Below are positions 10,072 to 59,000 of a DNA stretch of 64,000 nucleotides, piece by piece. The notes under the pieces were generated by a model, which saw only the letters and a program-made list of their open reading frames with translations, searched no databases and was not told the origin of the DNA. Positions within the stretch are counted from its first letter, which is position 1, and every line of letters starts with the position of its first letter. Both the position numbers and the translations under genes were made by a program. The DNA comes from Xiphias gladius (lineage: Eukaryota; Chordata; Actinopteri; Istiophoriformes; Xiphiidae), in NCBI RefSeq assembly GCF_016859285.1, contig NC_053404.1, forward strand, positions 15,329,105 through 15,393,104, read 5' to 3'.

Positions 10072-17748
<7,677 letters not shown>

Positions 17749-37000: not shown

Positions 37001-40000
37001 TAGGCCCAAAGTGGGACTGGAGAGATGGCAGATGGGAGGATGAGTTGGTGATGTATTTGTAGTCCTCTGTCGTGAATGTATATGGCTGACTGAGATTGAC
37101 ATCTTTCAGAGAGGAGGAGCAAAGTGGGTTCAAGTCTGAGCTGATCTGTTCAAGTTCAACTGGCCTATCAAAGAGAACCTCTTGTTGTTAAAAAAGAAAA
37201 AGAAAAAAAGAAAATGAAATTAATACTATTCAATAAACTTTTTCTATTGACCAAACCATTTACAATCTAACCATGTATATTTAAATATTTAATCCAAATG
37301 ATTACTTACTGTTGGCTTCACTAGTAACTGGCCCATGACGGTGAACATCCTCGACAATCCCACAGGAGTGCACACTACATAGCAGACAGAAAATGGTGTG
37401 ATCAGCTTGTGTGTTTAAGGTGAACTAACTGATGGAAGTTAAATGGCTTACTTAGTAAAAGCAGTCCTCCCATCAAAGATATACAGGAGTAGAGGTATGG
37501 TAGGTAGAATTCCCAAAGATCTACAGAAAAAAAACAAAAAAAAAACATTAATTTTGTAAAATATACACTATAAAAAGATAGTTTTGGAGGCTGCAAGAAC
37601 ACTCTGCAAGAAATAGTTCCAGCATGCAACTCCAAGTAAAACCACAATTTGTCTATATTTTGATTTTTGAAGGGATTTATCAAGCAAGGTATAATTTGTT
37701 AATTTGTTAGTTTTAGAGGTGCTGGTGGGCATGTTTTTGAAGTGAGCCAAGCTATCTTTTTCTCTGATTCCAGTCTTTATGCTAAGATAAACAAATCAAC
37801 CTGCAGCTCAAGCTTTATAGGTAATGCACAGTCATGAGAGGGGTGTAAATCTTCTCATCAATGCTCCATCAGAGACAAAAAACTGCATTTCCCAAATTGT
37901 CAAATTATTCCTTCACAAAAAATACGAAAAAAAAGATTTACAGTCACAAATAACACAGAATCCATAAAAAATTAAAATTAAAAAATTAAAAAAACAAAAC
38001 ACGTACCGTAGAGTGACTCCATACTGGCTGCGTCATTGTCAATGAGCGCGGATGCTACCCACACGATGCCCAGGATGAGCAAAGCCAGCAGGAAGAGCAT
38101 CACAAAGGTCTCAAGAATACGTGCTTTAATGCCCTGAGCGTAAAAAGTGCACATAAAAGAAAGGAATCTATTTAGATATGGTTGGTATAGTTGAAATCAG
38201 TATCACAATATACACAAAGAGTTTTATATTAACACATGGTTTCATCAAAAAGCTCATTAATCAAACTGATGTTCATTGTCATGAGCTAGAAGGTGGCATT
38301 TCATACATTTTATATCCAATTTTTAAACACCAAACAAGATTTGTTTTACTAGACATCTCCTTCCTCACTCCATCCTGCCTCACTCATACTAAACAGTATC
38401 ATTTCCATTCACGGCACACAAACATGACATAAACACTCCAACTGATTCCTGTGTAAAACAGCTCTTTTATACACACATATTGAAGTCTATAAAGTGGGTG
38501 TAACGGGGCTGGTGATGGCTGAGGTGAAATTAAAAAGAGGAGGGGGCGCGGGGGTGCTGTAAGGAGCATGAAGCCTGGCTGGGTCAGCTACTGTCTGCGA
38601 TCAAGAGCAGGCCTCCCATCTGGGGTCGATTAGGAGCTCCCTTAGCACCACAATTGTGTCCCCGGCCAGGCCGACAAAAGGGTTTGGGGGTAATTTGGGT
38701 TTTCCGGGTCACAAACTGCTGAGTGGTTAATAAAGTCCTCCTCTACCTGTTCACACAGTCTCCATTTCCCGCCCGGCTGGAGAGCCGAGCCGTTTAGCAC
38801 TGTAAGATAGATAGGCGTTCTCATACACATGTCAGGTAGGCTACCAGGCCCAGGATAACAAGGGCTCTCTGCCTTTGGAGAGCTGCTTAAATTGGGTACA
38901 TATGAGCAATTTGTTACCAGCTAACATAATGGCTGTGTGGTTGCTGTTCAGTATTTGCCAACAGGTACATGAAGGGGGTCTCTCTTTGAAAGTTCCCCCT
39001 GTTAATCATGAAGCCACTTTATAGAATGGAAATGGTTTTAATTCTGCAGATTAATTGCAGACTAAATCAGACAAAGTTTTTTTCTTTCTTTTCCCCCCCA
39101 GCACAGTTTATGACCATCATCCAGACTACCTGTCCGTTAGTGTTTGTATTACAATTTGGGTCATTGTTAAGTAGCTGTCTTCTCTCCTATGCAAATTCAG
39201 TCCCTTCTAACTCACTCTTAAGCTCTCATCTCTTTTACAAGCATCTCACTGACAAAACGCATTCGTGGGTCAAAGACATATTTGGTAAGTTAACGTCTAC
39301 AAAGTATCACCAACCCCTTCAGTGCATACTTTGGATATTTATACAGGGATTTAAGATTATTCCATTCTATGTCAGCGGTTGAAAATCCCCTGTAGCATCC
39401 TTTTGCTATAAGCAATCACTTGTCATCTACATGCCACAACCCTCTGTGAGTGAGTCTAGAATCTTCTACCACAACAGAGAGGAAAGTGGGCAGGGTCTGG
39501 AGTGCCCCAGTGTGGCCAAGGTGGACACTGCAGCCACTTGACAGGTAATGTTAGAGGGGGTAAGTGGGCCCTATAGAACCTTTAATCAGCTTGAAATAAA
39601 CCTAAAATATCTAATATATTATGAATAAAATATAACATTAATGAATACATTACAAAGGAACCATATATGTTTCTGTACCATTACTCCATTAACAATAATG
39701 AGGATCAATATTCTAAAAATGAAACCTCAAATGTGACATGGAAATGAATTTTGCTGACAGCCTCATTCTCTTTTGTACACACTCGCATACTCTGAGTACA
39801 CTAGATGGATGCAGCAATCAACCATCTCACAGCCCAACTCAACTGGGCAGTGGGGAAAACACTCAACACCACTGAATATAAAAGAGGGAGATGGAGAGCG
39901 AGAGAGAGAAATCTAGAGAAATATAGAGAGAGAACAACAGAGCGAGACTGGTGGAGGAGAGGAGTCAACGTCTGAGCGCATCTCATTCCCCTGAGGTAAA

Positions 40001-43000
40001 AGAGGTGAGAGAGGAATGCTTTCAGGGACTTCAGCCGCGTCCCACACGCGCTCTCTTAAGGATGCATCAGGACAAGCAGAAGCTGCAAGCAGGACGTGCG
40101 TCTGCTCAAGCGCACCAGTCCACCTTAACAAGCTGCCCATGCCATGCTGAAGGTGTATTCCCTTTAGATAGGTCTCTCAATCATTTATAAGACTCAAATC
40201 ATTACCCATTCAGATCATTTAGGGCAAAGGCAATGCTTGTCACCTCCCTTACTATCATCCCTGGTTCCTGCCTTGCTGGAAGAACAATCCACAGTGTCAG
40301 ACATGATTTGACTGTACAAGAGAAAGAGGACACTGAACGGAGAAGCCCGATTGGTTTCATTGATCCAGCCACATGCATGACATTGCACATTGAAAGTTCT
40401 CTCTATCATTGTCTATTCTTGCAAGGGAAAACTGAGTCCTTTGTTCCTCATCAAAAAAGTTATGAAAGGACAAATGCGTGCTTTGAAAAAAATATGGTAT
40501 AAAAATAGGAAAATCCAACTAAACAATCATCAATGATCAAAGATAAAACTGTCAACTGGTGAAGTAATTGAAGAAAAAAGAAAAAGACCTCTGCCTTGGC
40601 ATTCAGAGCGCCCGCTGAAAGTTTCTATTCTTGCCATTCTAAATGTGTAACTACCTCTAAATATAGCAGCTCTGAAATATTCAGCATCCCCCAATCCTCA
40701 CACTGACATCGAGTGAGGGGCTGGTTAACTGCAGCTATGTTGTACAAGACTTGAGAGACTTCCAAGAAATGCATGTAGTGGCCAGAGAGGAAAGTAACCT
40801 CTTCATATGCACTACCAAACAAACATGCATGAATTTGCATACACACACACAGACAGACATACAGACAGACGAGCAGTCGAGTAAATCAACCTCCAAATCC
40901 ACGCAATTGCACAAAGCTGCAGAGGGCTTGGGCAGTAACAGTTTACAAGCTTTTCGCCTAGACTGTGTTGCAGAAAAACTAAAGCACAATCTGCCACTTT
41001 CTTTGATATAGTGCTTCGACTGGTGAATCCAGCATAGAGTTCACTTCTGGAAGCCGAATGGAATAGTGGACAAGTGTGAGAGAGAGTGAGGGATCATAGA
41101 AAGAAATCAGACAAAGGAAGAGAATTAGGTGGTGCGGGAGCTTCCTAGTTGCTGCCATCAATCCTTAGCAGGTCAGCAGGCAGTGGCAGAGATCATCCCG
41201 CGGACCATCCTTCTGCTGACTGTCAGGGACGTGTGGAACAAGGGCCAAGAGTGTAATAAGTGAGGGAGGGGGCAGGGTCCTTTTTTGCACCTCAGCAAAA
41301 AGGACTGCCCTCTTTGCTAAAGACATGCCAGATGCCCAGGACCTTATTAGTGTATCCTTCAACCAGTCGGCCACAGCGCAATGACTGTGTCAAAGACAGA
41401 AAGCAGAGGAGAGGGACACTCCCCTGTAAAGCTGCAGGATGAACTTCTAAAGACTCTTAATAAGACTTCTTAATAAAGCCCCAATAACATGAGAGCATGG
41501 AAAATGATCAGCATCACGTCGTATTGTTCAAACTGTTGGGTGGGGATCGGGGTAGGGGGTTCAGTCAAGTTTTATTTGTTATCCTACAGTGATGACAGCA
41601 TGTTCATATTAAGACAAGGTTACATCGAGTACACCTAGTAGCCCATCAACATAATACTCTGCCCTTCTTCCTTCTCAAAGTATTTGAGTAACTCAGTCCA
41701 CACATGTGACAGAAGACGTCTTTCTTTAAAATCAGCAAAAGCAAAATATTAATCTGGTACCGAATCAGTTAAGTTTTTGCTTAGTTTAGAAAAACTGAGT
41801 CACGAAAGGAGGGGAAAAAATCCTGAGCAACTCGCTTGTTCTTTTTTAAATTCCCAGCTCGAACTAATATGTTGCCATGGTAACGAACATTGTAACCGGC
41901 AGCTTTAGGGAGACATTGTGACCTTAAAGGAAGGTATGTAAACACCACTTTATATTCTCTGGCTGGCCCTGCCCGAAAGAAGGCCTGGGAAAAATGTCTG
42001 CATGTGCAGGAGATTTGAAATAAATATCCAGGCCCCATTGTGGAGCTCCAACAAAGAGGAGTATCTTAGTAACACCACACGGGTTTGCTTGGCGAGACGT
42101 TTTCTATCTCCCCTGCCCCTCCCCTCCCCTCCCCTCCCTCCACAATAAACACACTTCTCATCATCGGCGGGTTAGGGCTTAGGATGAGATTGATGAGGAG
42201 TTTCTTTAACTACCAGATGAAACCTGTTGGCCCTTTGCTAGGTCAGTCAGGGGGTCAGACTCGTTCCAACTCGTTTCAGGATCAAACACATTTCAATACT
42301 ATGGGTAAGACCAAAAGACTATTCAATGCAAAGCACACTTTCTGCAATTTATATGGTTTCTTTACAAAAAACCTATATCTAGGGAAAAACATAAAAACAT
42401 TAAAACTAATTGGAAATTTTGCATACTTTTCATCATACTAAATTTACAATAATTTAGCTAGAGATAACAAACATCTGAGCGTCAGTGCAAAGAAAGTAAG
42501 ATTAGACGACACAAGAAATAGACCAGGTAGTTGTCAGTTAAAACTTTTTTTTTTTTTAAATCGCTGACCTGTTTTTGAGTAAATATAGCTTCAAGATATC
42601 ATACTCATCATGTATAATTGTTGAACTAATTTAAGTGCCTTTATATAAAGTTTGAACAAAGGCTTGTGCTGATGTCTTCACAGTCTTTGTCAGAATATGC
42701 TGGTCATCTACATAAGGATAACACCGATGGCTCTCATCAATATAATGCCATCTACTGGTGGTGTGGAGACAACATAACAGATCAGTGACAGAAGTGCTAT
42801 GGTGGGACATATAAGCCTCAAAAGTGGACACATTTTTCTCCATCCCAATGCACTCAAAACATCCCAAGAAAGAAGTACTTCATTTAGAATACTGCTATAT
42901 ATACACACAAGATGCAAAGCCACAAATACATCATGGCACAGAGGTTTCTTAACAGGATCAGAACCTAAAAACCTGAACCACACAAAGACCTTTAGTGGCC

Positions 43001-46000
43001 TCAGTGATGCAGATCTTCTGCAAAGATTTCAGAACACAGCCGTAAAGTGGGAGACATTTTACAGCAGCAAATAAAGCCAGATCATAACATCTGACATTAA
43101 GACCCTAAGTCACTATGATTCATCCACAATTTGGACAATTTGTTAAACAATGAATCATTCAGGTGAAAGAGCCTCTGAAGCATGAAGAGTTCACCCCCCC
43201 CCCCGAGAGAAAAAAAAAAACAAAAAAACATCCACATTTCCATCTTTATTCTGGTGACGTCTTTTAGTACATCGTCAAAAGAAAACACAGCCACATGAAA
43301 AGGCTGACTTACAACGTTAGCAGTGAAATTCATCATTCACTTCATTTCCGCAGTCAAAAGGACCTCATAGTGCCATAACATTCGCCCAGGAGGTTAAAAT
43401 GCCACATTAAACCTTATGACATTGTGGTCTAATGCTGTTATTGGGGAAGGGATAATATCACATTATAAAGACTTGGATCTGTGTTTTACATTCCATTTGC
43501 TGTCGGCCGCATGATTGACTCTGCAGGCAGCTCAGTTCTTTAGGTGCAACAGGAGTGTCACCTCCACTCCTTCCTTAGCACACACACAATATATACCAGG
43601 ACGTGCAGCTCAACATTGAACAGTGCTTCCTCTAAGCAAATTTATGGAAGATCAGTAGCAAGAAACAGTCTCACTAAAATGAAAAAGAACAAAAAAAGAG
43701 AAAAGTGAAAGAGGCCCTCATCCTGCTTCCTACACATCAGGGCCTGCCCTCTGTTGAAGAAATCCAACCGAAACAAATTAGTGAGGCTGACGAAGAAAAG
43801 AACTGGCTATACACTACAGTACAGACTAATTTTTATGTTCTTTTGCCAGAAGGGACATAAACCAGAGATGGTTTCAAACTGTGACACAGGATAGAGGTGT
43901 ATTAAAAGTAAATCTTTCCCCCTCCATTTTGCGAGGCTCTATTGTGCTGTCATGTTGCTGCGACTTTATGGACTTTTGGAACACGAGCCCCCAGCCTTTT
44001 TTTTCGGGGGGTAATCAATTAAACGAGGAAGTTCGCTGAGCCTTACAACTCGATTATTAGCCTGTCCTTTTGAAGTTTTATTTTAGGGGGCTGGGGAGGG
44101 GGTGACAAGGAATCAGGCATTAAATCAGTAAGGCCGATGCAGCAGTGTTGAAGCGTTTGCAGCCTATGGCCTTATTGGAAGGGTTTGTCAGGATGTGGCG
44201 CTGAGCGAAGACCAGATTCAGACTTTCATGGTTAATGAGATTGCTGCGGTGGCAGTTACAGTCAGTTGTGTGAGTCAGGGAGAGGACAAGGACTAGGCAC
44301 CTGCCGCTGTTGCTGCTTTAGCTGTTGACAGGGAACCTTTATGCATGTATAGCAAACCATACAAATATGACAACAGGCAAAAACACAAAAAATAAAAAGG
44401 GTTCCAAGTTTTATCTTTTTTTTGTTTTAGTTTTTAAATTTTGCAGATCTAGTTTTCACCTATGACTCACAGTTTGAAAGTATCAGGCTCATTTTCTACT
44501 TCTAATGCTTTTTTGATGATAGTTGGTAACCTTGCTTGACTAACAAAGAAAATAAACAAAACTAAGAACGATACATAAGATACTACAGCTAACACTTGAG
44601 GCGATGTACCTTTTTCGATCCCGCAAATCCCTCAGACTCCAAGAAGAAATAAGCAAATGGCATCAGGACAAAGAGGCAAAGATTGGAGAACAGTGACACG
44701 AGGTTCCACAGACCTGCAGAAACCCAACATGTGAGATTGTACGCATACAGTCGTGTACAAAAACAGTATAATATGAATCAATAGTAACTTTTATTTTTAA
44801 TTTAACAATGTGACATATTTTTCTCAGGCTCAGTGTCCACAAACACATTTTGCCCAACCTTATGTGTTTTCCCTTCAATATTATTTTACAATAGTTGTTA
44901 AGACAGTTGTGATGCATTACTAATACAGGGTTTTTTCTGGCAAGTGTCTCTTTCACAATTTCTAAGTCATGGACTCTAGTGCCCCCTGGAGGATGTTGGA
45001 AAACCCAACAGCCTTAACAACACAGTTTTTTAGTTGACACTGACTCAATTCAGTGCTTGCATGGCTGATTGTGACACAAAGGAGATCACATGATCTGATA
45101 TGTAGTGACACTGCAAATAATACAGATTGACTTTTAAATTGTGGTTTGAGGATCTAATGAGGGAAAAGTGAACTGGCTTCTTCCATCTGCCAGCAGCGGT
45201 GGCTGGTGAGTCATCATTTATCAAAGATTAAGTCAAATTTATAAATCAAATAATATTTCTTGCTTAATCTGTTGTATGTAACATTTGCCTTAATCACAAT
45301 TTGTACTCATTCTACAAGACTTACAATTTTTAGCAGAATTAAGAATCCGTATTATTTCAGCACTATTAAGAGAATCGTATTAGAATGTCCAGTCGTGTTG
45401 CAATATGTTTTATCTTCCTTTCTGTGTTTTACATGTTTCTAAAAATGTTTAGTGGAGTTTAAGTCTTTTTTGACTATGGAACAAAAAAAAAAAAAAAAAA
45501 AAATCTCCAGAACAGACAATTCCCTCTCTTTTAAAGACAGCTGCAGGGTTGGTCAATATGATGATATATACCATGACACAATATAAATTTCCACCATCAG
45601 AAAGCTTGAGTCTAAATTTAAGTATGTTTTCTGTATCAATGTTATAACATTTCATGATTTGTCAAGAATAAAATAAACTGGATTAGACACGAACACAGAC
45701 ATTCCCATCTGATTATTTTAGCCATAAACAGTAATTCAGTTGATTTTCGAAAATTTCTTACTGTATTCCCATAAAGATATATATCTAAATGACAGTGTAC
45801 AGTAATATAATGTATATCATGATTTTTCTTAGAAAAAACAATTTTGCCCCAAAAAGCTTCAATGACAGTCTTAAAATTGTTACAAACAACTATTCTTTTC
45901 AAAGCCTGATTATGAGCAACAGTGACAACGACAAAGAGAGGGTCGTATTCAAGCATGTTAAGCAGTATCTGGTTCTAAAACTAAAAGAGAAAACAAAAGG

Positions 46001-46694: not shown

Positions 46695-46784
<90 letters not shown>

Positions 46785-56000: not shown

Positions 56001-59000
56001 ACTCTGCAACTGACATAAACTTTTGTGCCAAATAAGACACATTTAGAGGGATCTCTGAAAGCACACACCATGCCGGTTCAACAATATTTTACTCACCAGC
56101 TTTATTGTTGAGATCTGGGGATTCAGTAACATGGCTAGACTCAAGTCCATTAGGTTTGACTTAACGCTGTTTAGACACTGTTTTGCAATGCAATGGGCAG
56201 ATTTTTCAGGGGTGTTTATGTAATTGGGTTACACTGTGGGGTTTGTTTACAACCTTTATGGGCTTATATTAAACTGATCACATGTCATCATCAGGATATT
56301 CATATATTGAACAGTACAATGGATCACAAGTCTGAAATGTTCACATTTCATCCTTTTCCAGGTGGGGGCCCATTTTCTAGAGACAGTGGTGCGAAAGTTT
56401 GACGAGCTTTACAAGAACCCGAGCGAGGGCAAAGAGTGCGACAACCTGGTGGCCATTGTTGCTCACCTCTACAACTTCCAAGTGGTGCATTCCCTCCTCA
56501 TCTTCGACATCCTGAAACTTTTAGTGGGAGCGTTTAAAGAGAAAGACATTGAATTAGTTCTGTTTGTGCTGAGAAATGTCGGCTTTGCCCTGAGGAAGGA
56601 CGACGCTTTGGCTTTGAAGGAGCTCATCTCTGAAGCCCAACGCAAGGCCAGTAATTTGGGGTCAAAGTTTCAGGATCACACCAGGGTAGGGAATTAGTAA
56701 CTCATGCAAACAGAATCACTTTATACTTAAATTATCTTTCATTTAGCTGACATTCTTAAATACCTAAAATCTATCATTGACTACAGTATTGTGCAATTTA
56801 TTTCTCAATTGTGTGTCAATTTTTAAGCTTATTTTACATCAAATCATGTGTAAACCTGTTCCCAGGTGCGTTTCATGTTGGAAACCATGCTGGCTTTGAA
56901 GAACAATGATATGCGGAAAATCCCAGGCTATGACCCTGAGCCTGTGGAGAGACTGAGGAAGTTGCAGAGGACTCTGGTGGGTGATTTTCACAGCATGACT
57001 ACATTTGGTTTGAAATATCCTTATTTCCCTACATTAGTGGAGATAGATTTCAATTTTAAATGTGTACATCACAGGGACTAATTTTATCATGCGTAATGAT
57101 ACTATTTTATAGTAGCTTCAACCTGTACCACCAGGTGGCTCCAGAGTACCACCTTTACAGACTCAGGGTCCAGAGTGTTGCTACTGCTTTCAGCCTGACC
57201 ATCAGTATGGCTGGGTTAACAGTTGTCAACTTCAGGATCGCAGGTGTCCTCCTTACATATCTTAAAACTGGTGTTTGCCTGTTAAGTGTACTTGTGACTG
57301 ATTGCTGGTGTATGTGTGTAACTCAGATCCACCGCAGTGCAGGAGGCAGTGACTTGAAACTGAGGGTCTCTCTGGACAATCTCCTGGCCGCAGAGCAAGT
57401 CGGCCGCTGGTGGATCGTCGGCTCCTCGTGGAGTGGAGCGCCCATGATCGGCGAACCAGGGAACACAACCACAAAACAGAGTACTGCTGAAGGACAGGTA
57501 GAGTACTGGAACTGCAGAAGATACCAGGATTGAAGCAGAGTGCAGTATTTGTAGTACATGCAATACTGTATTTAAATCATTTGAATTCGGATTTTCTTCA
57601 TTTCTAATCAGCAAAACTAGATTATTTCCTAATGTAAAATTGTTTTAGAAATTAAAGCTGTTTAAAATAAAACACTTAACATCAAATAATACATCATTAC
57701 TCACAACTGAATTACATTTGTCAGTGCAGTCAGTAGGCTACAGTATATCTCAGTTCTGTCACTTGCCAATACAGTTTTATCAGTATTAGGTCCCACTATC
57801 AACCTCAGTACTTTTTTTTTTTTTTTGCTGTCAACCAAAATGTGTCAGTAGCACTGAGCTACTTATTTCTTATTCAGATAGTTCCTGGTTTACGATAAGA
57901 TTTTGCCAGCTTTAGACTATTTTATTTGATTTATTATTTTCATTAAATTCTTGTGCTTTAGTTTATGTTTAGACACACTGAGAGGTGCATCTTGTCTTTT
58001 TGTTAAATGAAAGATTTCTAGACAAACATTTTTATATTTCTCAAAGTAAGGTATCCAAAAAAGTATTGTTTTAGAATCAGTAACAAAAACTCACACATTA
58101 TGGGGAATCTGTGTTGGCCTTAGCAACATTTCTTACCTAACTGTTGTCCCTGTTTTATCTTTCTCAGTTTAGTGCCAAAGTCTTAGAGCTGGCTAAGAAA
58201 CAGCGGATGAACACTGATGTAAGAAGAAATATCTTCTGTGTCCTAATGACCAGCGAAGATTACCTGGATGCATTTGAGAAACTGCTGAGGTTTTTTATAG
58301 CTCATGTCTATTGTCTCTGTTAAGTTGGCTGACCAAAATTAGGAAGAAAGAAATGAATTGTACAAATTTTACATTTCCAAGTCACCCAGCTAAAAGGTTG
58401 GTGTTTCAAAGCCTTTTGTTTGTTCTGTGTGAAGAATGGGACTGAAGGATAAGCAGGAGAGAGAGATTGTACATGTGCTGATGGACTGCTGTCTGCAGGA
58501 GAAAACCTTTAATGCCTTCTACGCTGTACTGGGAGAAAAATTCTGCACCCACGATCGACGCTTCCAGGTACTCCCGCTAAACCTTAACAAAAGAGAATAA
58601 AAAACTATAAGGACTCTCACTTACTTCACATAGAACCTTGCAAATAAACAGAACGTACTGTAAATCTCCTGTACTATATATACATCATTAAATAAACATG
58701 CCCCAGTTCCACAAAGTTTAATGGACTACCACCACAAACGATCAGATTAGTAAATACAATGAACAGTTTCCTTGGGCAATTGTTTGATAAGTAAAAACAT
58801 TATATTGTTACCTTCAAAGCAGTAAAGATTTATAACTATACATATCTTTATCTATATATACATATATTTTATCTATATATGGTGCATATGCTTATACATT
58901 CTTTTAGAAAAAATTCAATCATCTTTTTATGTTAGAGATACTTGTTATAATAATTTCACCTATAAATGTTGTTTCTTTAGTCATTAAATCTAATGAAAGG

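Follow-up and report, generated by a model that had tools for sequence, protein, structure and literature searches.

The block at positions 43330-44340 of the stretch of swordfish (Xiphias gladius) DNA analysed here (64,000 nucleotides, hereafter the window; C5:15329105-15393104 of a genome of 691 Mb and 1,298 contigs) is, with a probability of about 95% judged from sequence, the orthologue of the ZRS (MFCS1), the lmbr1 intron-5 enhancer of shh in limb and fin buds. The case for orthology is built on its position in lmbr1 intron 5, its linkage with shh, a cluster of four CATAAA sites, and two strong anchors whose order and orientation are correct. An earlier note on this DNA had already named this kilobase as the probable ZRS, and both strong anchors fall inside it, with strand and order as expected; the stronger proof, a run of 21 bases at 43939 identical to part of a mouse ZRS primer, was absent from that note. 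We place the element itself on the minus strand at 43590-44205, a guessed span in which the strong anchors cover 43638-43959, with support up to 44033. Both of its outer ends rest on weak matches, the low one being a chicken primer match at 43593 (p 0.29-0.45), and the 5' end in the lmbr1 sense is the high coordinate.

The lmbr1 exons were placed with a human LMBR1 protein, and the splice borders were then taken from the window sequence itself. Exons 1-6 lie on the minus strand at 52556-52494, 49190-49118, 48034-47995, 46679-46540, 44713-44610 and 38133-38007; spliced in frame they encode 182 residues that match the Pfam LMBR1 family with an E value of 2.2e-33. The five introns between them measure 3,303, 1,083, 1,315, 1,826 and 6,476 bp, all with GT-AG ends. 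Because the exon borders, the GT-AG ends and the Pfam match agree, intron 5 can be set at 38134-44609 (6,476 bp, minus strand), precisely the interval reconstructed earlier, and the ZRS block lies within it. A search of this intron against Rfam gave no matches, and a repeat search returned three inverted pairs and a single direct pair of 19 nt (79%) that falls outside 43330-44340; the earlier note had described the kilobase as free of dispersed repeats. An 18-nt inverted pair (43867-43884 and 44467-44484, 89% complementary) has one arm inside the presumed ZRS and may be due to chance. At 41850-42090 a stretch resembles, by eye, conserved non-coding sequence; the ZRS is no more than 3.4 kb away, a distance equal to the length of the medaka deletion mentioned below. 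Elsewhere in the gene, an AC microsatellite of 43.5 perfect copies (46696-46782) stops some 17 bp short of the exon 4 3' splice site (46679) and reads as GT repeats in the lmbr1 sense, where the branch point and pyrimidine tract are expected; variation in its length could affect lmbr1 splicing.

The surrounding locus has the arrangement expected of the ZRS. With an SHH query, exons of shh were found on the minus strand within 200 kb below the window (97% identity over 66 residues); the Pfam hedgehog domain puts the first of the coding exons at C5:15283342-15283581. Since the hedgehog-domain match extends up to C5:15283581 and the 21-mer shared with the mouse primer lies at C5:15373043, shh is about 89 kb from that 21-mer, on the rnf32 side; by its linkage to lmbr1 this gene would be shha. 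A second homeodomain in the 200 kb below the window, matched by an MNX1 homeodomain query (47% over 66 residues), is read as engrailed-type (en2), and rnf32-like exons, two of them RING-like by alignment, were located on the plus strand at window positions 10466-17745, with an RNF32 query. An exon with a MIF4G domain at 56311-56697 is read as nom1. The gene order is thus engrailed-type homeodomain, shh, rnf32-like, lmbr1 and MIF4G (nom1-like), the same as the en2-shh-rnf32-lmbr1-nom1 order of the vertebrate locus. Within the 264 kb formed by C5:15129105-15329104 and the window, 5,000 bases are N.

This genome holds at least five hedgehog loci. A second shh-like gene, probably shhb, lies at C14:333734-336536, its exon 1 being identical to human SHH at 92% of 77 residues; none of the 19 LMBR1-profile matches listed is on C14, as reported for teleosts. 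The ZRS block (43400-44400) matched only itself in its own genome in a search that skipped simple repeats and very common words, and this search with a 1-kb block gave no sign of a second ZRS near the shhb-like gene. A dhh-like gene at C18:15115406-15129905 (70-82% to SHH) stands about 11-14 kb from an LMBR1-family exon. In mammals, DHH is paired with LMBR1L, and the pairing of hedgehog with LMBR1 genes may have been kept twice in this genome.

The identity of the block was tested by comparing the window with short ZRS oligos printed in papers. These comprised human PCR primers (printed in PMC9149355), a mouse MFCS1 Hx-site probe (PMC5592926), mouse ChIP primers (PMC3886911), chicken primers and a probe (PMC5633194), a mouse genotyping primer (PMC10830414), newt primers (PMC11591917) and three mouse homeodomain (HD) sites (PMC12267059). 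When 19 oligos were scanned ungapped along both strands of the whole 64-kb window, four matched best inside 43330-44340 (mouse P4-reverse, the mouse Hx probe, human 2r and the chicken antisense primer) and 15 did not. The mouse P4-reverse primer matches at 21 of 23 positions at 43939 on the plus strand, and the next best place in the window reaches 16; the 21 matching bases are consecutive (43939-43959), and a match with at most three mismatches occurs once in the window and in none of 100 whole-window shuffles. No copy of the 21-mer was found in prokaryote contigs or in viral contigs, a check for vertebrate contaminants. Controls from outside the ZRS (mouse P1F, P6F and P6R) reached 18/29, 21/29 and 15/20 at best, none of them in 43330-44340.

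The second strong anchor is the Hx-site, or Hoxsite 4, block at 43638-43684 on the plus strand, antisense to lmbr1. Here the mouse Hx probe matches at 17 of 20 positions (43642, plus strand; next best in the window 14), with a match at three mismatches or fewer occurring once in the window and in one of 100 shuffles, and human 2r matches at 18 of 22 (43638, plus strand; next best 14); the human primer overlaps the probe and is therefore not an independent anchor. According to PMC5592926 mouse MFCS1 carries TTATGGATCATCAGTGGCAA, and the human ZRS primer given in PMC9149355 is CAATTTATGGATCATCAGTGGC; the swordfish has TTTATGGAAGATCAGTAGCA at 43641, found once in the 691-Mb genome. A mouse/chicken composite of the Hx site aligns over 43642-43684 with p 0.0025 (0 of 400 shuffles). 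The stretch at 43641 had earlier been likened to a HOX-site segment of the mammalian ZRS, and these matches, the best in 64 kb for their oligos, bear the likeness out. The fourth oligo, the chicken antisense primer, reaches 16/23 at 44019 on the minus strand, next to 15 elsewhere. In gapped local alignments over the whole of intron 5, Hx and P4-reverse were the two of 15 anchors that beat all 300 shuffles, the other 13 giving p values from 0.11 to 1. A longer human stretch, aligned in the same intron, gave p 0.13 against 43960-44609 and p 0.71 against the entire intron, and is not used as support.

On human chromosome 7, LMBR1 is a minus-strand gene. The ZRS numbering in PMC9149355 rises while the hg19 coordinate falls, so that the Hx and P4-reverse oligos are antisense to LMBR1; in the swordfish, both are on the plus strand of the window, that is, antisense to lmbr1 as well. 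Read in the lmbr1 sense, the P4 block comes first and the Hx block 3' of it, which is the order that the primer pairs predict for mouse. When 10 anchors, two of which combine overlapping oligos, were chained in the published order, the score was 29.5; the opposite strand gave 14.5 and a reversed order 19.5, and none of 150 dinucleotide-shuffled introns exceeded 18.5. Homology in matching order and orientation is thus found, through the two strong anchors and the chain that they carry. When these two anchors are removed, the best chain moves to 38884, outside the ZRS, with a score that 2 of 150 shuffles reach, so the strength of the full chain comes from Hx and P4-reverse. The place at 38884 was rejected as an element: of the eight oligos in its chain, one scores equally well in 43334-44340, four score better in that interval and three score better at 38884, and we take this chain for chance because it needs only matches of the kind found throughout the window. 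The weak anchors by themselves prove nothing and do not locate the element.

Restricting the search to the interval in which each anchor would be expected gave p values below 0.05 in 6 of 14 tests (all values are per test). Besides the Hx composite, these include CTTCCTACACAT (43726-43737, minus strand), a candidate counterpart of the chicken ETS site CTTCCTACTCAT, with which it agrees at 11 of 12 bases (p 0.03-0.04); its core is AGGAAGC here, not AGGAAGT, and its distance to the TCAG of the Hx site is 74 bp, against about 70-72 bp in chicken as calculated from the primer positions printed in PMC5633194. ACAAATTAG, at 43773-43781 on the plus strand, is nine bases common with the mouse third HD site, GACAAATTAGCC (p 0.0125-0.022). 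At 44016-44033, also on the plus strand, a CAATTA homeodomain motif runs into AGGAAGT at the place matched by the chicken antisense primer; two overlapping versions of the ETS1 test at 44019 gave p 0.02-0.035, and the site is a candidate for the second HD site and the ETS1 site of mouse. A weak candidate for the 5'-most block (human 2f, the mouse first HD site and the mouse genotyping primer) occupies 44154-44199 on the plus strand, where a composite with one assumed junction base gave p 0.027-0.035 at 44184; the first HD motif is not seen there, and the three oligos taken singly do not find the block. The eight tests that were not significant (p 0.08 to 0.98) were those of human 2f, 3f and 3r, mouse P4F+HD2, mouse P5F, chicken sense, HD1 alone and the genotyping primer alone, the best places of the last two differing from that of the composite. 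The weaker anchors (AATTA-ETS1, the chicken ETS site and ACAAATTAG) fit between and beside the two strong ones.

The content of transcription-factor motifs is mixed. The mouse ZRS has four CATAAA sites (PMC5561167), and the swordfish block has four CATAAA/TTTATG sites within 330 bp, one at the Hx site (43641) and three assigned by motif alone: two at 43832-43861 (43832, minus strand; 43856, plus strand) and a CCATAAA at 43965-43971 on the minus strand. The pair at 43832-43861 are candidates, again by motif alone, for the mouse Hoxsites 1-3. This cluster is the densest of the window, no other 340-bp stretch holding four of its 80 sites, and four or more sites occur in 3% of 780-bp windows. The TTTATGG sites noticed previously are those at 43641 and 43965. 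The ETS sites claimed on both strands stand as GGAA cores, of which 43560-44339 has 10 over the two strands (9% of windows hold as many); as full AGGAART sites they do not, since only one is present in 43560-44339, at 44026 (30% of windows hold at least one). Five AGGAA(G/A)T sites are described for mouse (PMC3314984), a number typical of that species and not defining, and the newt ZRS is described as lacking one of the five (PMC11591917). The sequence core singled out in the earlier note is present, with TAATCAATTAAAC starting at 44012 and GAGGAAGTT at 44025.

As for E-boxes, one had been claimed for the kilobase and three CANNTG motifs are there (43494, 44263 and 44298), though none between 43494 and 44263; this 769-bp gap is the fifth longest of the window and therefore not striking by itself. 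Three E-boxes, one per subdomain, are given for the tetrapod ZRS in PMC12263586, which makes them typical of the element and not defining. The YAATAAA motif was not found in the presumed ZRS. The CAATTA at 44016 is the only [C/T]AATTA in 43300-44609; the three conserved [C/T]AATTA sites of mouse are reported in PMC12267059 to be required for long-range and not for local activity. Of these three HD sites, the first was not found here, the second has a candidate counterpart and the third is represented by nine identical bases. A loss of all long-range homeodomain motifs was rejected, since two of the three have a candidate.

These differences in sites would also fit a block that is orthologous to the ZRS but has lost much of its activity, the loss of E-boxes and ETS sites leaving shh expression in the fin to another enhancer. 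The single AGGAART in 43560-44339, the lack of CANNTG between 43494 and 44263 and the eight failed interval tests of 14 all speak for such a remnant. However, four CATAAA sites are present, the 21 bases held exactly in common with mouse would argue for lasting selection, and a mouse ZRS without 127 conserved bp is reported to have no phenotype (PMC5561167), so that loss of sites can be tolerated; we consider a remnant improbable.

More improbable still is that the block corresponds to the shadow element (sZRS) known from medaka, with the main ZRS elsewhere in the intron. Medaka ZRS and sZRS were removed together by a 3.4-kb deletion (PMC8673081), which makes the reading conceivable, but the swordfish block is directly identical to the tetrapod ZRS at two places, and for those oligos no other place in the window comes near. 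Lastly, single motifs such as TTTATGG are common and chains of weak anchors also arise by chance, as they would if the resemblance were fortuitous or the block another, unrelated conserved element; yet none of 100 whole-window shuffles holds the 21-mer at three mismatches or fewer, and order, strand and intron all agree, so that this reading is already largely refuted.

We therefore retain the ZRS orthologue as our reading and propose, by homology, that 5' HOX proteins would bind its CATAAA sites in the posterior fin bud and that ETS factors would bind the AGGAAGT site in the bud, where LIM-homeodomain proteins may occupy the AATTA motifs. The element, some 89 kb upstream, would then activate the linked shh promoter along the posterior margin of the fin bud.

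With the mouse and human ZRS in LMBR1 intron 5 the block shares its intron, strand, SHH linkage, Hx-site block, the 21 exact P4-reverse bases, the CATAAA HOX cluster and an AATTA motif adjoining an AGGAAGT ETS site. It differs in that shh is about 89 kb away, against 800-1,000 kb in mouse and human (PMC5561167), and in having one AGGAART instead of five, no core E-box and no first HD motif that could be found. The medaka and zebrafish ZRS occupy the same gene and intron and are linked to an shh gene (PMC11607692); a ZRS in lmbr1 intron 5 is described there for teleosts and called common among gnathostome genomes, so the swordfish element is an ordinary orthologue. Less ordinary are its short range and partly different set of sites, and the at least five hedgehog loci of this genome, including on C14 a shhb-like gene. 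That gene, together with the absence from C14 of all 19 LMBR1-profile matches listed, bears on a question raised in PMC11607692, namely what drives shhb in the fins of teleosts.

Few vertebrate enhancers have been studied as thoroughly as the ZRS, and orthologues with a measured distance to shh help to separate the parts that set place, level and range. With its distance of about 89 kb, the swordfish is a natural case in which to test whether [C/T]AATTA motifs serve only long range, as claimed. As a tentative suggestion, against which the odds still stand, a fish ZRS that works over about one-tenth of the mammalian range might have lost part of its grammar, namely the first long-range HD motif and all core E-boxes (HAND2-type). 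If so, long-range motifs would be kept only as far as distance demands, and bHLH input would reach the fin ZRS without canonical E-boxes.
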